Shown: piece after piece, positions 25,402 through 36,927 of the stretch
Layout of the letters: each line of letters begins with the position of its first letter
Position numbering within the stretch: position 1 is the first letter of the stretch
From: an uncultured Arenicella sp.
Lineage (GTDB): Bacteria; Pseudomonadota; Gammaproteobacteria; Arenicellales; Arenicellaceae
Length of the DNA: 36,930 bases
Assembly (NCBI GenBank): GCA_937974565.1
Contig: CALJWL010000008.1
Location: 1-36,930 of the forward strand
Direction: 5' to 3'
Notes under the pieces: generated by a model
Seen by the model: only the letters and a program-made list of their open reading frames with translations
What the model was told of the DNA's origin: nothing
Database searches by the model: none
Program-made: the position numbers and the translations under genes

Positions 25402-26058
25402 TCACTCTTGACTTAAATTACGAAAATTCATTCTGCGCAGCATTGGCGGAACCAAAATAGTACTGGATGGCAAACACTGCTCAACGACTTGCAATAACTC
25501 AGCTGTTTGCTCCATTGAGGTCAACACCGCCACGTCAAACTGATCGATGTGAGGCATTTTGTTCGTAACCTCTATATTGAAAAACTCGCTACGTTTCACA
25601 CCCGGTTGATATACGGCCGTTACCGGCAACTTCGCTTGTAAGGCGCGCATTAAAGCAATCTCGGTTAAGTCTGACAAGCCAACAAGCAATAAACGTGCAT
25701 TTTGTTGTTCCGCTAACTGATTTAACAACAAAGTGTACTCATCGCCCGATTGCCTAAAAAGAGCAAAAGAAGTGCTGAAAAAGTTAGCCGTCAGTCGAGC
25801 CTTTTCGGCAAAGCCATTGGGAGTAAGGTAATATAAATAGCGATTTGCCGGCGCCGTCGACACTTTAACCCACCCCTTTTTTACGCACCGCTTTAAATAC
25901 GAATTTGCCAACCCCAGTGCCACACCCATTTGCTGTGCAAGATGACGCTGACTGACGTCTTCATTATCTTCAATTGCTTGCAATAACTCCAAAGTAAGTT
26001 GGCTTTCTTTGCTTACCTTAGGCGGATCAAGATTGGTGTGTTTGATCTGAGTGTTCAT
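25402..26058 (-). CDS. MarR-type EPS-associated winged-helix regulator
   Basis: 218 residues. The N-terminal winged helix (about 20-100: VSQRHLAQQMGVALGLANSYLKRC, then KGWVKV and YYLTPNGFAEKARLTANFF) closely follows the pattern of the EPS-associated MarR family that heads exopolysaccharide clusters. A C-terminal ~110-residue region (ARLLLVGLSDLTEIALMRAL … VYQPGV) looks like a small Rossmann/CoA-binding-like fold, which suggests sensing of a nucleotide or sugar-nucleotide ligand. Oriented with and directly upstream of rmlB, it probably controls the whole 15-kb run. Ligand and sign of regulation are unknown. Confidence 0.8.
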   Translation of the reverse strand: MNTQIKHTNLDPPKVSKESQLTLELLQAIEDNEDVSQRHLAQQMGVALGLANSYLKRCVKKGWVKVSTAPANRYLYYLTPNGFAEKARLTANFFSTSFALFRQSGDEYTLLLNQLAEQQNARLLLVGLSDLTEIALMRALQAKLPVTAVYQPGVKRSEFFNIEVTNKMPHIDQFDVAVLTSMEQTAELLQVVEQCLPSSTILVPPMLRRMNFRNLSQE

Positions 26059-26241
26059 TGGCTGAACACTATAGTCAGAATGCGAGTGAAATTCAAAGAA
26101 AATTGATAAACTCGAAACAAGGTATTGTCTTGACCACCTAAATTGGCTATTTTTTAAGGTTCTAACATGGGACCTATGTAATGATTTTGCTTTGGGGGCA
26201 AGTTGTGCATAAGAACAAGAACTTTTTAGTGTGTGGTAGTA

Positions 26242-26730
26242 ATGAAAAAAGTCTTTAAAACCAGTCTTGCTAGTATGGCTCTGGCAAGCATCCTTTCTAC
26301 GTATGGTTATTCAGTTAATGCTGCGGGATTTCAACCAGTCTATTCTTTTAAAAATTTAGGCGAATTCACCAACCTTGATGGCCAAGAGTTCACGAAACTT
26401 TTGGTCACTTGCAATGGTGATCCAGTGCCTCGTTATATCCAACGTATTGTGGGCCAAAAAAATTGGTGCATTGATGGACAATCAGAGTCTTGTTCTAAAG
26501 AGAGGATAGAAACGGCAACCGTTGCATGCACCACTAACGCGCCCACCATGATCGCAAACGTCCAAATTTCACCTGAAGAACTTGCTGATCAGCAACGTAA
26601 ATCCGAACTTAAAGAAAAGCTTCTGGCTGAGCAAATAGAGGTTGAAAAAAAACAAATTGACATTCAAAGTCGGCGCGTGGAATTGCAAACATTAGAGCTA
26701 AAATTAGCCGCACAGAAACAAACCAACTGA
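26242..26730 (+). CDS. Hypothetical secreted four-cysteine protein with C-terminal coiled coil
   Basis: Not recognised as a known family. 162 residues from ATG 26242; an in-frame GTG nine bases upstream is less likely because the ATG begins a typical signal peptide (MKKVFK, hydrophobic stretch to about 20, probable cleavage after VNA at 27). The mature part has four Cys (57, 76, 84, 96), enough for two disulfides in the periplasm. The last ~50 residues are highly charged and heptad-like (QRKSELKEKLLAEQIEVEKK), predicting a coiled coil. It is divergent from the EPS regulator and sits 347 bp upstream of the acyltransferase operon, so no partner is implied by spacing. Confidence 0.7.
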   Translation: MKKVFKTSLASMALASILSTYGYSVNAAGFQPVYSFKNLGEFTNLDGQEFTKLLVTCNGDPVPRYIQRIVGQKNWCIDGQSESCSKERIETATVACTTNAPTMIANVQISPEELADQQRKSELKEKLLAEQIEVEKKQIDIQSRRVELQTLELKLAAQKQTN

Positions 26731-27077
26731 GAACCCTCTGAGTTAGCTTGCTGCGCAATAACGCAAAGACTGCTAATGCAAAGACCCGCCTTTAAGTGAA
26801 GCAGCCAAATAGCGTTCACTTACTGTTGCCCTGTTTGACAGCCAACAACGGCCGCACGTCACATAATCACCATAATTGAAACTCAAGCGAAGACTAAAAA
26901 CCGATTGAAATAGAAATTTTCTGAAGAGCTTTCAAGCGCATAACAAATACGACGTGGGTGCATCAGAAGCCGCAGTCAAACCACTCTGTCACCAAACCAT
27001 AATCAAATGATCATGTTTAGGTAACACAAACTTTTTACAGTCAGCGAAATCTAAATTTCATTGGAGTTAGCAAGGTT
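26731..27077. other. Intergenic region upstream of the acyltransferase operon
   Basis: 347 bp without a supported gene. A GGAG at 27063-27066 and AAGG at 27072-27075 precede the GTG start of the next gene. No rho-independent terminator or strong promoter pair was found. CTGTCAC (26986-26992) resembles one half of a PhoB site, but its partner repeat is poor. Confidence 0.5.
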
Positions 27078-28121
27078 GTGATCAACGCTAACTGGAACAT
27101 CGGCTCCGCCACACCCGTTGGTAAACTAACTTATTTGGTTGATAAACTAAGCCAAAAGTCGACTAACGCCTTCTTCAATTCGACTTGTTCTAAGCAAAGC
27201 GTTCTAGCCCTGCCCGAGTCTAAAAGGCGCCTTGCTAACGAGCTAAAACGATCAAAGCGACTTGGAAAAACAGACGATGGACAACAAATTTACCTGTTTG
27301 ATTATCGAATCAACTCGGCCGTCATTAGAGAGCTTGGTCGTTTACGAGAGTTAAGTTTCAGAGCCGTTGGCGAGGGCACTTATAAATTACGCGACCTTGA
27401 TCGATACGATAAGAGCTATCGTCATATTATTCTCTGGAATGAGCAAGACCAAGAGATTGTTGGCGCTTATCGAGTTGGTGAAGTTTTCTCCTTAACAAAA
27501 ACCAACAAAAGAAAACTCAGCGAAAACAAAACTCACAAATGTAATATTAACTATAGCAATCTATACACCAATGAACTGTTTCAATACAAAGCAAAATTCG
27601 ATGCGATTGCGCCCTATGCCATCGAATTAGGCCGCAGCTTTATCCAACCAAGCTATTGGAACAAGCGAGGCTTAGATTATTTATGGCAAGGCGTGGGCAC
27701 TTATTTGCAAACTCACCCGCATGTGCGTTATTTACTTGGTGCGGTCAGCATCTCGAATAACTACCCAGAGTTAGCAAAACAAGAAATCGTTGGGTTTTAT
27801 CAATATTTTTATCAGCCCAAGACAGCAAAAGAATACGCAGAGGCTAAACGGAAATTTGTGGTTAATAGAGCCGTTTTAGAAGGGTATCGAGGACTAAAAC
27901 TCTCTGACGCTAAAATTCGTCTCAAGCAATCTTTATTAAAACAAAACGTCACGCTTCCCGCTCTGTACAAACACTACGCCGAACTCTGTGAACAAAGTGG
28001 TATTAATTTCTTTGATTTCAATGTAGACCCTGACTTCGAACACTGCATTGACGGGCTTATCATGATTGACCTTACACAACTAAAGGAAATTAAGAAGAGT
28101 CGTTACTTAAGAGCTTCTTAG
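27078..28121 (+). CDS. OlsB-like (COG3176) GNAT N-acyltransferase
   Basis: 347 residues from a GTG start with GGAG/AAGG upstream. The core (about 84-255) follows the Acetyltransf_5/"hemolysin" family: IRELGRLRELSFRAVGEGT, HIILWNEQDQEIVGAYRVGEV, then YAIELGRSFIQPSYW and LWQGVGTYL. Relatives include OlsB and the matching domain of OlsF, which transfer a 3-hydroxyacyl chain from acyl-ACP to the amino group of ornithine or another amino acid to make aminolipids. The ~80-residue N-terminal part and the C-terminal tail are not recognised, and there is no PlsC-type partner domain. It is the first of three co-directional genes with a PHP-GT4 fusion and a histidine phosphatase, so the product is likely a lipid intermediate. 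Amine acceptor unknown. Confidence 0.78.
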   Translation: MINANWNIGSATPVGKLTYLVDKLSQKSTNAFFNSTCSKQSVLALPESKRRLANELKRSKRLGKTDDGQQIYLFDYRINSAVIRELGRLRELSFRAVGEGTYKLRDLDRYDKSYRHIILWNEQDQEIVGAYRVGEVFSLTKTNKRKLSENKTHKCNINYSNLYTNELFQYKAKFDAIAPYAIELGRSFIQPSYWNKRGLDYLWQGVGTYLQTHPHVRYLLGAVSISNNYPELAKQEIVGFYQYFYQPKTAKEYAEAKRKFVVNRAVLEGYRGLKLSDAKIRLKQSLLKQNVTLPALYKHYAELCEQSGINFFDFNVDPDFEHCIDGLIMIDLTQLKEIKKSRYLRAS

Positions 28122-28182
28122 GAATAACAACAACCCCATTAATAAGCGTTACTCTAAACGCAAAACCGACGCACACATCACC

Positions 28183-30651
28183 ATGCCAAGAGCAGACTTA
28201 CACGTTCATTCCAAATATTCCGATCACCCAAGTACTTGGGGTCATAAGGTATACAGTTCGCCTGAAAGTTTTACCGATGTAGAAACGGTTTATAAACAGG
28301 CCAAATCCAGAGGCATGGACTTCGTAACACTGACTGATCATGACGATATTAGAGGAGCCATCGAGCTAACGACTAAGTACCCAAATGACACATTTATGTC
28401 GTGCGAGGTCACCACATTTTTCCCTGAAGACAATTGCAAAGTTCACATCTTAGTGTACGGTCTTAATGAAGCTCAGTATGAGCAAATAATGGAAATACGG
28501 TTTAACATTTATCGACTTAGGGACTACATTCAACGTGAGCAACTCGCCTACTCCGTTGCTCATGCAACCTACGATCAAGATGGCAACCTTACGTTCGAAC
28601 ATATTGAAAAGCTGGTGGTGTTATTTGACGTTTTTGAAGTTGTAAATGGTGGCTCAGACAGCCAAAACAATCTGTTGTTGCATCGTTTTTTACAACACCT
28701 TAATGAAACGAAACTCACTCAATTGCAGCGTAAACATAACCTTACCTCGATGAGTGAAGAGCCATGGGTAAAGGGGTTTACTGGCGGATCAGATGATCAT
28801 TGTGGCATTTTAATTGGCAGCGCTTACACACAGAGCCCAGCCGACTCAATTGAGCGCTTTTTAGAAACCATACGCCATAAAGCCAGTGTTGGTAATGGCA
28901 TGCACGGTAGCTTTGAAGTCTATGCCACCGGCGTTATCAAACACATTCATGATTATCGCTTGCACCGTGACCCTAAATACGCAAACACGAAGATGAATGA
29001 CTTCCTTGAGCTATTCTACAGTGGCGATAAAGGCAACATCATGAAGCGCTTCAAGAAAAGCCAGTCATTGCGGTTTCTAAAAAAGAAAAACAGCAAAACG
29101 CACAAAGCGCTGCACAGCTTGCTAAAGCGGATCAACGAAGAATCCAAACACGATATTGCCAGCAAAATTCCCAATGCTTACCTCGAAATAAATCAATTGC
29201 ACGATGAAATGTTTCGCTCCGTGGTCGGCGCTCTAACGAAACACATCCCCAGTGGCGACATTTTTAAAGGTTTCCAAAAATTGGCCACTCTCTTTCCAAT
29301 GACCTTGCTTGCCGCGCCGTTCATCGGTTCCATGCGGCACCAAATTTTAAAGACGCCGATAAAGCGGCCTTTAATTGAGGGCACCAAACTAAATTACACG
29401 GAAAAGGCATTGTGGTTCACGGACACCATTGACGATCTTAACGGGGTTTCAGTCACTCTGCGGCAAATTGCCACCCACAGCCTGAAACATAACTATCAAC
29501 TTAAATTAGTAAGTTGCGTAGATACGGCCAAGCTGAATTCACCGTTACCGGAAAACACACTTAATTTTCACCCAGTTAAAGAAGTTCAAGTGCTGGGCTA
29601 TGAGCAACAAGTAATTGGGTTTCCTTCACTGCTTTCAATGATGCGAAAAATAAGCATTGAACAACCAGATCAGATAATCATTTCAACCCCAGGGCCATTG
29701 GGTATGGGCGCCTTACTTTGCGCACGATTAATGGGCTTGCCTGTTAAAATGATTTATCACACGGATTTTGCTGAGCAAATAGTGAGAATGACGCATGAGC
29801 CCACGCTGGCAATCTGGACTGATAAATTGGTTAACGCTTTTTATCAACAAGCCGACCAAGTGTTTGTGCCAAGTCACGCCTATATCCAAAAACTAACGAA
29901 CGCTGGCCTTGATCAATCCAAGTTTACGATTTTTCCACGAGGCTTGGACTTGGATAAATATCACCCCGATGCCGATAACAAAAACGAAATGATGACTCGG
30001 CGAAAACAGTTGCACGGCGATTTCACTTTGCTATTCGCGGGTCGAATCTCAGAAGACAAAAACCTATCACTGTTAAGCAATATTGCGCACGAGTTAAACA
30101 CCTCTAACCCAAATACATTTAATTTAGTGATTGCTGGTGATGGCCCCGACCTTGAAAATTTGCGACAACGCCTGTCGGGCTTGGGTAATGTCCATTTTAC
30201 TGGTCGCATCTCACCCGACGAACTTATTGACTGGTATCGCTCTGCCGATTTGTTCGTGTTTCCAAGTCATACGGACACATTCGGCATGGTTATACTGGAA
30301 GCACAGGCGTGCGGTGTTCCATGTTTGATCACTAATAGTGGCGGCCCGAAAGAAATTATTAAATCAGGCGTAACTGGAAAAATTATCGATACAGATCAAA
30401 CTTCACGTTGGGTTGAGGGCGTTCTCAACTACCGCGACCTTAAAGTTAATGCGCCGCATGAATTTGCTCAGCTAAGGCAACAATGCAGCGCTCACGTTAG
30501 TCAACAAAACAATTGGCAACCGGTGTTCGACGCCGTATTAGGAAGCAATTGCCGCATGCCGATAGAAGAACACACCCAATCCATACCCATCAACGAATGT
30601 GGCACGCAAAGTAGCCCAACTGAAAGTTCTCAGCCATTACAGGCTGCCTAA
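28183..30651 (+). CDS. PHP phosphoesterase - GT4 glycosyltransferase fusion
   Basis: 822 residues. Residues 1-~215 form a PHP metal-dependent phosphoesterase with a full set of ligands: His7 and His9 (DLHVHS), Asp14, Asp52-His53 (LTDHDD), Glu75, His88, His127 and GGSDDHCG near 201-208. A middle segment (~260-390) is basic and contains a hydrophobic stretch (LATLFPMTLLAAPFIGSM) that could associate with membrane. Residues ~395-770 are a GT-B, GT4 glycosyltransferase: VFVPSHAYIQKL, FPRGLDLDKYHP, FAGRISEDKNL, and the donor-site block DTFGMVILEAQACG followed by TNSGGPKEI. The GT part resembles lipid-directed (MgtA/SqdX-like) enzymes. The fusion suggests a phosphate is removed from the substrate or product of glycosyl transfer. 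No Shine-Dalgarno is evident. Confidence 0.85.
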   Translation: MPRADLHVHSKYSDHPSTWGHKVYSSPESFTDVETVYKQAKSRGMDFVTLTDHDDIRGAIELTTKYPNDTFMSCEVTTFFPEDNCKVHILVYGLNEAQYEQIMEIRFNIYRLRDYIQREQLAYSVAHATYDQDGNLTFEHIEKLVVLFDVFEVVNGGSDSQNNLLLHRFLQHLNETKLTQLQRKHNLTSMSEEPWVKGFTGGSDDHCGILIGSAYTQSPADSIERFLETIRHKASVGNGMHGSFEVYATGVIKHIHDYRLHRDPKYANTKMNDFLELFYSGDKGNIMKRFKKSQSLRFLKKKNSKTHKALHSLLKRINEESKHDIASKIPNAYLEINQLHDEMFRSVVGALTKHIPSGDIFKGFQKLATLFPMTLLAAPFIGSMRHQILKTPIKRPLIEGTKLNYTEKALWFTDTIDDLNGVSVTLRQIATHSLKHNYQLKLVSCVDTAKLNSPLPENTLNFHPVKEVQVLGYEQQVIGFPSLLSMMRKISIEQPDQIIISTPGPLGMGALLCARLMGLPVKMIYHTDFAEQIVRMTHEPTLAIWTDKLVNAFYQQADQVFVPSHAYIQKLTNAGLDQSKFTIFPRGLDLDKYHPDADNKNEMMTRRKQLHGDFTLLFAGRISEDKNLSLLSNIAHELNTSNPNTFNLVIAGDGPDLENLRQRLSGLGNVHFTGRISPDELIDWYRSADLFVFPSHTDTFGMVILEAQACGVPCLITNSGGPKEIIKSGVTGKIIDTDQTSRWVEGVLNYRDLKVNAPHEFAQLRQQCSAHVSQQNNWQPVFDAVLGSNCRMPIEEHTQSIPINECGTQSSPTESSQPLQAA

Positions 30652-30677
30652 CCCATTACCTTCGCCCTAATAACATC

Positions 30678-31301
30678 ATGAAAAAGTCAAAGCATTCTGT
30701 CAGTGCCAACAACCGCTATTATTTGATGCGTCACGGTGAAAGTCTTGCCAATCGGCGCGGCTTAATCGTCAGTCACCCCGAAAATGCGATCGAGAACTAT
30801 GGTTTAACCACCAAAGGCGCCGAGCAAGTTATGGATGCCGCGCTAAAAACACGACTGAGTTCGGACACCGTTATCATCAGTTCGGATTTTAAACGAGCTA
30901 AAGAAACAGCCGATATCGTCAGCAGCGTTATTTCATCTAACGATGCAGTCACCCTAGAGCCCAAACTCAGAGAGCGCAACTTTGGCGACTGGGAGCTTGC
31001 CGATCACGCCAACTACGAAACAGTATGGCAACACGACATCAATAATCCATCACAAAGCCAACAAAACGTTGAATCGGTAGATCAAGTACTCGATAGAGGC
31101 TTAAGCGTACTCACCGTGTTAGATAAGAAATACACCAATAAAAATATTTTGCTGGTAGGCCATGGCGATGTTCTACAGATCTTGCTGGCCCACCATCACA
31201 ACATAAACCCACGCTTTCACCGAAGCCTATCGAGTATTGGCAATGCAGACATTCGAAGTCTGGCTAAACTCGAATTGGCGGCTAGGTCCCCAGCCGCGTA
31301 G
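30678..31301 (+). CDS. Histidine phosphatase (phosphoglycerate mutase-like)
   Basis: 207 residues. The branch-1 histidine phosphatase signature LMRHGES supplies the nucleophile His19 with Arg18; SSDFKRAKETA gives the phosphate-binding Arg, LRERNFGDWE the catalytic-acid region, and VGHGDV the second His (162). No signal peptide is seen, so it is probably cytosolic. It is 26 bp after the PHP-GT4 gene on the same strand and probably co-transcribed, implying a phosphorylated intermediate in the same pathway. Small-molecule, sugar-phosphate or lipid-head-group phosphatase activities all fit. Confidence 0.85.
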   Translation: MKKSKHSVSANNRYYLMRHGESLANRRGLIVSHPENAIENYGLTTKGAEQVMDAALKTRLSSDTVIISSDFKRAKETADIVSSVISSNDAVTLEPKLRERNFGDWELADHANYETVWQHDINNPSQSQQNVESVDQVLDRGLSVLTVLDKKYTNKNILLVGHGDVLQILLAHHHNINPRFHRSLSSIGNADIRSLAKLELAARSPAA

Positions 31302-35791: not shown

Positions 35792-36927
35792 GGAACCTCT
35801 GATTTAATCGTTTTCACCGAGCCGTTTTCTCATTATTCGGTTTTCACTGGCAATATTTCCCCTTAAGTTGTTGATTTAGCTTGCAATCTGGCACTTTTAC
35901 CAAATTGCAGGCGCACTGCGGCCTAGGCCGCTAGCTCGTGCCTCGATATATAGAGGTTCGCAAGCGCAAACAAGGTAAACGCGTGGCAGGCATTTTTATG
36001 CAAGCCTTTGTATCGTACCTTGCGATAACCCCACAGGTTTTTAACTACCCCGAACGCATGCTCAACTTTGGCTCGGGTTCGGTTGCTTTTGCGATTGAAT
36101 GATTTGTCCGCGCAACTCAGCTTACGGCCACGACGTGCCTTTCGGTTAACCCGCCACGTCACTCCATTCGCTTCGGCATGCGCTTGCCTTTGATCATTGG
36201 CATACGCTTTGTCACCGTAAATTTCACTTTCCTCACCGTGCAGCAAGTCGTCCATCACCACCGAGTCGTGCACAGACGCGTCGGTCACCACCACACTGTG
36301 AACGCGACCATTCGTGTCCGTCCCAATGTGCGTTTTCATACCAAAGTACCACTCGTTGCCTTTCTTGGTTTGTTTCATCTCTGGATCGCGCTCGCGCTTT
36401 TCGTTCTTAGTCGAGCTGGGTGCTGAGATGATGCTCGCGTCCACAATGGTGCCTTCGCTTAATATCAAGCCTTGTTCAGATAAATACTGTTCGGTGATTT
36501 GAAACAGCTTCTTAGTTAGATTACGAGCTTCAAGATAATGTCGAAAGCGGCAGATGGTGGTTTCATCCGGAATCGATTCCAAGTCAACTTGCGCAAAACG
36601 GCGCATCGATTCAATATCATAAAGACTGTCTTCCATCGCAGGGTCACTTAGGGCATACCACTGTTGCATAAAGTAAATGCGCAGTAACGTTTCAACTGAC
36701 ACGGGCGGCCGACCTCGTGAACCCTTGGGGTATTTGGACTTGATCGGCTTTAACAAGATACGCCATGGCAATACCGCATCCATCTCTCCTAAAAATCGTT
36801 CCTTGCGAGTGATTTTCTTTTTATTCTCGTAGGCTAAATCGGCAAAGCTTGGTTGTTTCATGACGGTGGATTGATCAAATAACTCGGAGGTGAGTATTAT
36901 ACTTTAACCGCTTTTTGCAGAGGTTCC
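35792..36927 (-). mobile_element. IS5-family insertion sequence, complete
   Basis: 1136 bp. The left end starts GGAACCTCTG (35792-35801) and the right end is the reverse complement (CAGAGGTTCC, 36918-36927), a perfect 10-bp terminal inverted repeat, less similar further in. The left flank is TTAG (35788-35791) and the right flank begins TTA at 36928-36930, where the window stops, consistent with the 4-bp YTAR duplication of the IS5 group. One transposase gene fills the element. Short TCG(G)TTTTCAC-type direct repeats inside the left end may bind transposase. Confidence 0.85.
35923..36861 (-). CDS. IS5-family transposase (DDE)
   Basis: 312 residues and uninterrupted. The N-terminal DNA-binding part includes GRPPVSVETLLRIYFMQQWY and the IPDETTICRFRHYL motif typical of the family. 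The catalytic triad is Asp141 (GTIVDAS), Asp217 (IYGDKAY) and Glu267 (VEHAFGVVKNLWGYRKVRY). All key residues are present and the reading frame fills the element between intact ends, so it is probably active. Its promoter would lie near the right end of the element. Confidence 0.93.
   Translation of the reverse strand: MKQPSFADLAYENKKKITRKERFLGEMDAVLPWRILLKPIKSKYPKGSRGRPPVSVETLLRIYFMQQWYALSDPAMEDSLYDIESMRRFAQVDLESIPDETTICRFRHYLEARNLTKKLFQITEQYLSEQGLILSEGTIVDASIISAPSSTKNEKRERDPEMKQTKKGNEWYFGMKTHIGTDTNGRVHSVVVTDASVHDSVVMDDLLHGEESEIYGDKAYANDQRQAHAEANGVTWRVNRKARRGRKLSCADKSFNRKSNRTRAKVEHAFGVVKNLWGYRKVRYKGLHKNACHAFTLFALANLYISRHELAA

Follow-up and report, generated by a model that had tools for sequence, protein, structure and literature searches.

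In the window analysed here (the whole 36,930-nucleotide stretch of an uncultured Arenicella sp., GenBank assembly GCA_937974565.1, contig CALJWL010000008.1, forward strand; contig C8 of the genome that we designate G000), three consecutive genes are likely to form a PhoB-type phosphate-starvation operon that exchanges phospholipids for phosphorus-free (sugar and amino-acid) lipids, the second gene making a glycosyl-diacylglycerol and the first serving an aminolipid arm. As originally predicted, the three genes are co-directional and closely spaced (all on the plus strand, with gaps of 61 and then 26 bp in the list of open reading frames, ORFs, of the window), and they encode an OlsB-type N-acyltransferase (gene 1: 27078..28121, 347 amino acids, GTG start), a protein that joins a PHP metallophosphoesterase to a GT4 glycosyltransferase (gene 2: 28183..30651, 822 amino acids) and a branch 1 histidine phosphatase (gene 3: 30678..31301, 207 amino acids). 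We read this gene set as phosphate-starvation membrane remodelling because of the Pho-box-like array in front of it, the proximity of the fusion to pst/phoU genes, its co-occurrence with OlsF and a published agt mutant of Desulfovibrio. This context backs both the regulation and the pair of lipid arms, and we infer the substrate of the PHP half, the sugar, the amine and the role of gene 3. The enzyme types are known and their arrangement is real and conserved; its central element is the fusion, of which the literature searched gave no description.

The proteins of the operon

Gene 2 is composed of a PHP domain (residues 1-262; 28183..28968, plus strand), an all-helical linker (residues 263-405; 28969..29397, plus strand) and a GT4 domain (residues 406-790; 29398..30552, plus strand). 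The GT4 half is recognized by Pfam (PF00534, E 1.6e-34), by NCBIfam (best model the lipid-acceptor GT4 NF053787, at 113 bits vs a cut-off of 480) and by structure, since a Foldseek search with the whole AlphaFold2 model (pLDDT, the predicted local confidence, 89.3; pTM, the predicted template-modelling score, 0.86) retrieved the GT4 enzymes BshA, MshA, PimB' and PimA. The PHP half remained by sequence under the Pfam cut-off (22.0 vs 26.4 bits); despite this score, its modelled fold and its set of metal-ligand motifs in the alignment place it in the PHP superfamily, and a Foldseek search with the model of residues 1-405 (pLDDT 89.4, pTM 0.87) returned as best match the PHP domain of RNase AM (7ug9, E 5.8e-8), followed by 3e0f/3o0f, 9etk, 2yb1 and 2anu. 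Across an alignment of 75 sequences, D52, H53, H127, D204 and H206 of the PHP half and R621 and E706 of the GT4 half do not vary, while each of H7, H9 and E75 (PHP) and H526 and K626 (GT4) is kept in at least 90%; we take these to be ligand or catalytic positions. The alignment holds the window protein and the 80 loci kept of 175 in a scan for relatives (8 of this genus and 72 non-Arenicella), minus L070, L073, L090, L094, L098 and L106; it was used for the first fold, and the alignment of the second fold (73 rows) lacks L097 and L101 as well. The fusion with an intact ligand set, which had been proposed from the letters of the sequence, is thus borne out by AlphaFold2, Foldseek and the 75 sequences.

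The linker had been singled out for structure prediction, which gave an all-helical segment; among the Foldseek matches listed none is clearly to the linker (the search was made with residues 1-405, not with the linker by itself). A moderately hydrophobic helix near residues 366-387 (Kyte-Doolittle 1.31 in the window protein, homologue median 1.53) is compatible with membrane contact, a property read from sequence that fits such contact and does not prove it. In a few relatives PHP and GT4 lie in separate frames or GT4 stands alone (L070:8001-10373, G981 and G809), and these are natural splits or frameshifts.

Gene 1 belongs to the GNAT-type family PF13444 (E 3e-21) and matches the OlsF model NF052615 with an E-value of 1e-110 (370.8 bits), exclusively over model positions 272-569 of 570, and GlsB with 5.6e-40 (both NCBIfam). 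It shares 41% identity over 305 amino acids with the C-terminal half of a KSB1 OlsF, a protein whose own score (694.1) is above the curated cut-off of 620. It therefore has the C-terminal N-acyltransferase half of OlsF, standing alone, with no O-acyltransferase half fused in front of it and a score under 620; since the N-terminal half is absent, we class gene 1 as OlsB-like (the assignment first made for it) and rule out a full OlsF. A protein resembling the O-acyltransferases OlsA/GlsA is encoded elsewhere in the genome (G000:C16:42082-42870); its 136.6 bits against the OlsF N-terminal half fall short of the family cut-offs.

Gene 3 was correctly recognized as a histidine phosphatase: it matches PF00300 (E 1.4e-30, 106.9 bits vs a cut-off of 21.7) and carries the RHG and GHGD motifs, which together place it in branch 1.

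Conservation of the operon within Arenicella

A full-length fusion was found in 11 of the 18 genomes of the genus, G000 included (61 genomes searched). The phosphatase adjoins it in 10 of these 11 loci, the window's own among them, and in L013 a different gene (halogenase-like by eye) takes the phosphatase position. The acyltransferase adjoins the fusion in 7 of the 10 loci with upstream sequence (L013/L040, with only 76-77 bp upstream, was left out of the acyltransferase and array counts), and all three genes occur together in 7 loci, own included. The three-gene arrangement is hence conserved within the genus more than chance would have it. In L011, L012 and L014 the fusion directly follows a divergent MarR-type regulator, with no acyltransferase beside it, and nothing elsewhere in their genomes (G012, G007 and G006) strongly matched the OlsF N-acyl half, in a genome search that covered 8 of the 11 fusion-bearing Arenicella genomes.

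The original prediction would have been refuted by a lack of co-occurrence of the three genes in other genomes. Within Arenicella this is not the case, as 7 loci (own included) hold all three genes; no non-Arenicella locus examined does. A histidine phosphatase lies near the fusion in 0 of 72 non-Arenicella loci and in 0 of 30 Desulfobacterota loci (the latter with short flanks of 1.5 kb), so that among the loci examined a phosphatase beside the fusion was observed in Arenicella only. Given these absences and the missing acyltransferase in 3 of 10 Arenicella loci, neither gene is an obligate partner of the fusion.

A Pho-box-like array upstream of the operon

Four 7-mers with an 11-bp period (26986..27025, plus strand) are situated 53-92 bp upstream of the start of gene 1, and a run of 7-mers with the same spacing precedes the first gene of the operon in all ten testable Arenicella loci (window included). 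The arrays were spotted by eye in the relatives before the array model was built, and the Arenicella loci are related to each other; the leave-one-out rank is the fair figure, because the model was devised after the relatives' sequences had been viewed. With a matrix from the nine other loci, the window array takes the first rank among 73,782 positions with a score of 18.0 (next non-overlapping site 7.5), and over the ten loci the array ranks first in 9 and second in L039, where it overlaps the first. The highest maximum in 60 first-order Markov resamplings of the 36.9-kb window was 17.6 (mean maximum 10.9).

Furthermore, a two-unit version of the array matrix finds, in the 16-kb pst stretch of G000, a site 82 bp upstream of pstS (14.2, second on its strand), and in the corresponding stretch of G006 sites upstream of pstS and of phoB that are first on their strands (14.5 each); G006 encodes PhoB (306.8) and PhoR (406.2), both over their cut-offs. 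A second matrix, made of E. coli Pho-box sites, places 5 of 7 Arenicella upstream regions above the 95th percentile of shuffles (the window and L035 have no clear site), and its best scores in the three acyltransferase-less loci are 13.6, 13.0 and 15.3 vs shuffle maxima of 14.2, 13.1 and 10.8. The direct repeats, resembling those upstream of pstS and phoB, would make the operon a predicted member of the PhoB regulon, within the limits given for these matrices here and below. The condition of phosphate limitation, named in the original prediction among those for comparing lipids, was sensibly chosen.

The fusion and its neighbours in other phyla

The 72 non-Arenicella loci come from Cloacimonadota, Spirochaetes, Desulfobacterota, KSB1, Deferribacterales, Planctomycetes, Verrucomicrobia, Lentisphaerae, Acidobacteriota, Neomarinimicrobiota, Calditrichaeota and others. 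Among 274 genomes drawn from the class, the fusion (E <= 1e-60) was present in 3, all of this genus; the family is consequently patchy in Gammaproteobacteria, where it was probably acquired.

The flanks of the 72 loci amount to 824 kb and 715 ORFs, many loci being cut by contig ends. PhoU, PstS, PstA or PstC over the curated cut-off occurs within 8 kb of the fusion in 9 of them (L045, L046, L047, L049, L050, L051, L052, L095 and L104), with two further matches under the cut-off (L078 and L092); assuming one pst block per ~4-Mb genome, we estimate the chance expectation at well under one. Pairs of PhoB- and PhoR-like genes lie within 6 kb of the fusion in L045, L051, L071 and L076 (the regulator in L074 is not PhoB-like in particular), and OlsF-type or PF13444 genes are found near it in 4 of the 72 loci (L058, L073, L107 and L077).

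Within Desulfobacterota, the fusion model was matched (E <= 1e-50) in 72 of 395 genomes, mostly as full fusions, and in one family, taken as Desulfovibrionaceae, in 121 of 247. OlsF (E <= 1e-60) occurs in 44 of the 395 genomes and 32 of these 44 are among the 72 with the fusion model, i.e. 32/72 vs 12/323 of the others (Fisher p 1.2e-17; treating the 7 GT4-only, partial and split cases as fusion-less gives 29 of 65 and p 1.6e-15), p-values that are inflated by shared ancestry. The pairs are also physically close: in 22 both genes are on one contig, in 18 they lie no more than 10 kb apart and in 10 no more than 400 bp (15 and 9, respectively, if G688, G697 and G706, where the match is GT4-only or split, are excluded). 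Within the Desulfovibrio-like family, OlsF was matched in 30 of 30 selected genomes (in G959 in pieces), a figure that gives no background rate because the 30 were hand-chosen from the 121 fusion-matched genomes. Of the 30 Desulfobacterota loci (the best 30 of the 72 genomes; 1.5-kb flanks, with one or two members named per family), 8 contain a phosphatidylserine (PS) decarboxylase family, 3 a PhoH family and 4 OlsF-type genes.

Some further neighbours recur. A methyltransferase and a PS decarboxylase-like gene form a pair upstream of the fusion in L169, L170, L177, L180, L183, L187, L188 and L191, which hints at lipid headgroup chemistry. A PhoB-like response regulator stands directly downstream of the fusion in the Desulfobacterota locus L168 (L168:3568-4254; 226.5 bits to a PhoB-like seed), a locus whose fusion frame carries stops. 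Directly after the fusion, 6 of the 80 loci kept in the scan encode a member of a protein family of ~570 amino acids (L049:8905-10605, L051:4259-5953, L073:8028-9860, L078:3781-5502, L089:8063-9769 and L107:10072-12102); it has no match in Pfam (L089, L049 and L107 scanned) or NCBIfam (L089 scanned) and no transmembrane-like segment in four members checked, and is a candidate partner of the fusion. A GMC oxidoreductase family lies just downstream of the fusion in 7 loci (L064, L066, L079, L081, L082, L085 and L088), together with an SDR-type (short-chain) dehydrogenase family in 6 of the 7, the names of both families resting on one member each.

Comparison with known low-phosphate systems and proposed role

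Phosphorus-free glycolipids and ornithine lipids are taken to indicate phosphate stress in waters and sediments. The type of phosphoesterase known from the glycolipid route, PlcP, is a calcineurin-like metallophosphoesterase. Under phosphate limitation Desulfovibrio alaskensis G20 replaces more than 90% of its phospholipid by glycosyl-diacylglycerol, glycuronosyl-diacylglycerol and ornithine lipids, and at low phosphate a mutant in Dde_3613 (agt, named an Agt homologue) is devoid of glycolipids and one in Dde_3661 (olsF) of ornithine lipids (PMC5193443). The likeness to the Arenicella operon lies in a glycolipid and an ornithine-lipid arm that are there produced together at low phosphate. Dde_3613 is probably a member of the PHP-GT4 fusion family, and the main text of PMC5193443 does not contain the term PHP. 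A comparison aimed at finding the G20 genome did not identify it: CutC is encoded in 8 of 46 genomes, and of the two CutC proteins set against solved structures, that of G778 scored higher with chain 5fau, the D. alaskensis enzyme (1744.7 bits vs 1658.6 for G914); G778 has a fusion frame of 889 amino acids, and the 93.7 kb of its contig that were read showed no olsF. In the second system, PlcP-Agt (e.g. Methylosinus trichosporium OB3b), a low-phosphate glycolipid pathway draws its diacylglycerol from PlcP, the known enzyme for this step (PMC9239053). Here too a phosphoesterase and a GT4 enzyme come together, as in the conversion of phospholipid to glycosyl-diacylglycerol at low phosphate, and control by phosphate starvation has its counterpart in the predicted Pho-box-like array; in contrast, the phosphoesterase is a PHP domain and not of the PlcP type, it is fused to the GT4, and the GT4 partner corresponds by family membership (Pfam and GT4 structures), not by orthology to Agt. 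GlcN-phosphatidylglycerol synthase, alpha-MGlcDAG synthase and PimA/PimB' resemble gene 2 in fold and are among its best sequence models, whereas gene 2 scores far below their curated cut-offs and is fused to PHP. The OlsF likeness of gene 1 is confined to the C-terminal N-acyltransferase half, its difference being the O-acyltransferase half, for which G000 has the separate OlsA/GlsA-like protein. In the literature searched, judged by titles and the beginnings of abstracts, no PHP-glycosyltransferase lipid enzyme is described.

Gene 2 is best read as a single-chain counterpart of the PlcP-Agt pair. Once phosphate is exhausted, PhoB would turn the operon on; the PHP half may then strip the phosphate from phosphatidic acid, or the phospho-headgroup from a phospholipid (as PlcP does), leaving diacylglycerol, to which the GT4 half of the same chain would add a sugar, giving glycosyl-diacylglycerol, while the helical linker may keep both active sites at the membrane. 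Gene 1 could supply the N-acyl half of an ornithine-type aminolipid, which the OlsA/GlsA-like O-acyltransferase encoded on contig C16 would complete. Gene 3 probably frees inorganic phosphate from the released soluble phospho-metabolite, and this is the weakest step.

More tentatively, with somewhat less than an even chance in our judgement, the PHP half represents a phospholipase C or phosphatidate phosphatase of a new class, passing diacylglycerol directly to the fused GT4 and forming a second, independently evolved starvation route that replaces PlcP plus Agt, spans ten or more phyla and is common in sulfate reducers. The PHP-GT4 family could provide the diacylglycerol step where PlcP is absent and serve as a gene marker for lipid remodelling, and the fusion would be a case of two linked reactions in a single chain.

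Evidence against and alternative readings

Several observations weigh against the starvation reading. The window array is weaker than that of 8 of the 9 relatives, and the E. coli matrix does not pick it up (its score of 7.0 is no higher than shuffled sequences reach) and finds no consistent Pho box upstream of the fusion in non-Arenicella loci. The top two-unit site in the pst stretch of G000 (L158:2446, 14.7) is inside a predicted ORF, the four-unit array matrix does not single out pst promoters, and no PhoB in G000 exceeds the curated cut-off (best 200.4 vs 296.2). OlsF (E <= 1e-60) is absent from 40 of the 72 Desulfobacterota genomes with the fusion model, and in 32 fusion genomes of mostly other phyla, drawn from the 72 non-Arenicella loci, the OlsF family was matched (E < 1e-60) in only 5, one of them with the O-acyl half only. 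Two stretches of the GT4 half are more hydrophobic (1.49 and 1.45) than the linker helix, Dde_3613 is a probable rather than a proven member of the family, and the substrates of PHP, GT4 and phosphatase are ones that we infer. Moreover, the nearest solved relatives of the PHP half in Foldseek include enzymes of nucleic acids and nucleotides.

This last point bears on an alternative in which the starvation operon is kept, but the PHP half is regulatory or cleaves uridine mono- or diphosphate (UMP/UDP) or another phosphoester, with diacylglycerol coming from elsewhere. The nearest PHP structures, with RNase AM and an amidohydrolase solved with adenosine monophosphate (AMP) bound, would suit such a role, as would the few genomes in which the GT4 half is alone or split from the PHP half; on the other hand, many phyla have retained the fusion, its ligand set being conserved in the alignment, and no PlcP-like phosphoesterase is among the named neighbour proteins (most neighbours being unnamed). 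We regard this alternative as unlikely, albeit one to be reckoned with.

The original prediction saw in the three genes a single new stepwise pathway whose product, a small molecule or an aminolipid, would carry both acyl group and sugar. The tight operon in 7 Arenicella loci is in its favour, and the adjacency of fusion and OlsF elsewhere would also fit a sugar placed on an aminolipid. Against it, 3 of 10 Arenicella loci have the fusion but no acyltransferase beside it, those 40 Desulfobacterota genomes have it without a strong OlsF, and the agt and olsF mutants of Desulfovibrio lose separate lipid classes (PMC5193443). As the OlsB half of OlsF, gene 1 fits a separate aminolipid arm, and a single pathway with acyl and glycosyl transfer onto the same molecule is not supported. 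We reject the single pathway as improbable, the fusion being so often without an acyltransferase and, in the loci outside Arenicella, without the phosphatase. Since the known glycolipid and ornithine-type lipid arms account for the gene set, no new pathway is needed: the lipid part of the prediction stands, and its novelty is probably to be given up.

That the operon belongs to the adjoining exopolysaccharide (EPS)/O-antigen cluster, its GT4 building a surface polysaccharide, would agree with the MarR_EPS-like regulator and the EPS/lipopolysaccharide (LPS)-type genes found alongside, both here and at several Arenicella loci, but is rejected as very improbable because the operon is on the strand opposite to that cluster, has its own Pho-box array, and has homologues elsewhere beside pst/phoU, OlsF and the PS decarboxylase family.

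Neighbouring features of the window

Next to the proposed phosphate-starvation operon lies a divergent MarR-type regulator (25402..26058, minus strand; nearest NCBIfam model MarR_EPS, 69.9 bits vs a cut-off of 88), a conserved neighbour that we assign to the EPS/LPS side. An ORF of 165 amino acids with a signal-peptide-like start (by eye) is situated between regulator and operon (26233-26730) and matches no Pfam or NCBIfam family over the cut-off; in L034 and L037 the corresponding gap is too small for it. A DDE transposase is found at 35923-36861, close to the contig end. Over the start of the MarR-type gene lies an inverted repeat (GTTCA...TGAAC) followed by TATAG (26053-26074), which recurs in other Arenicella loci and is a possible autoregulatory operator.

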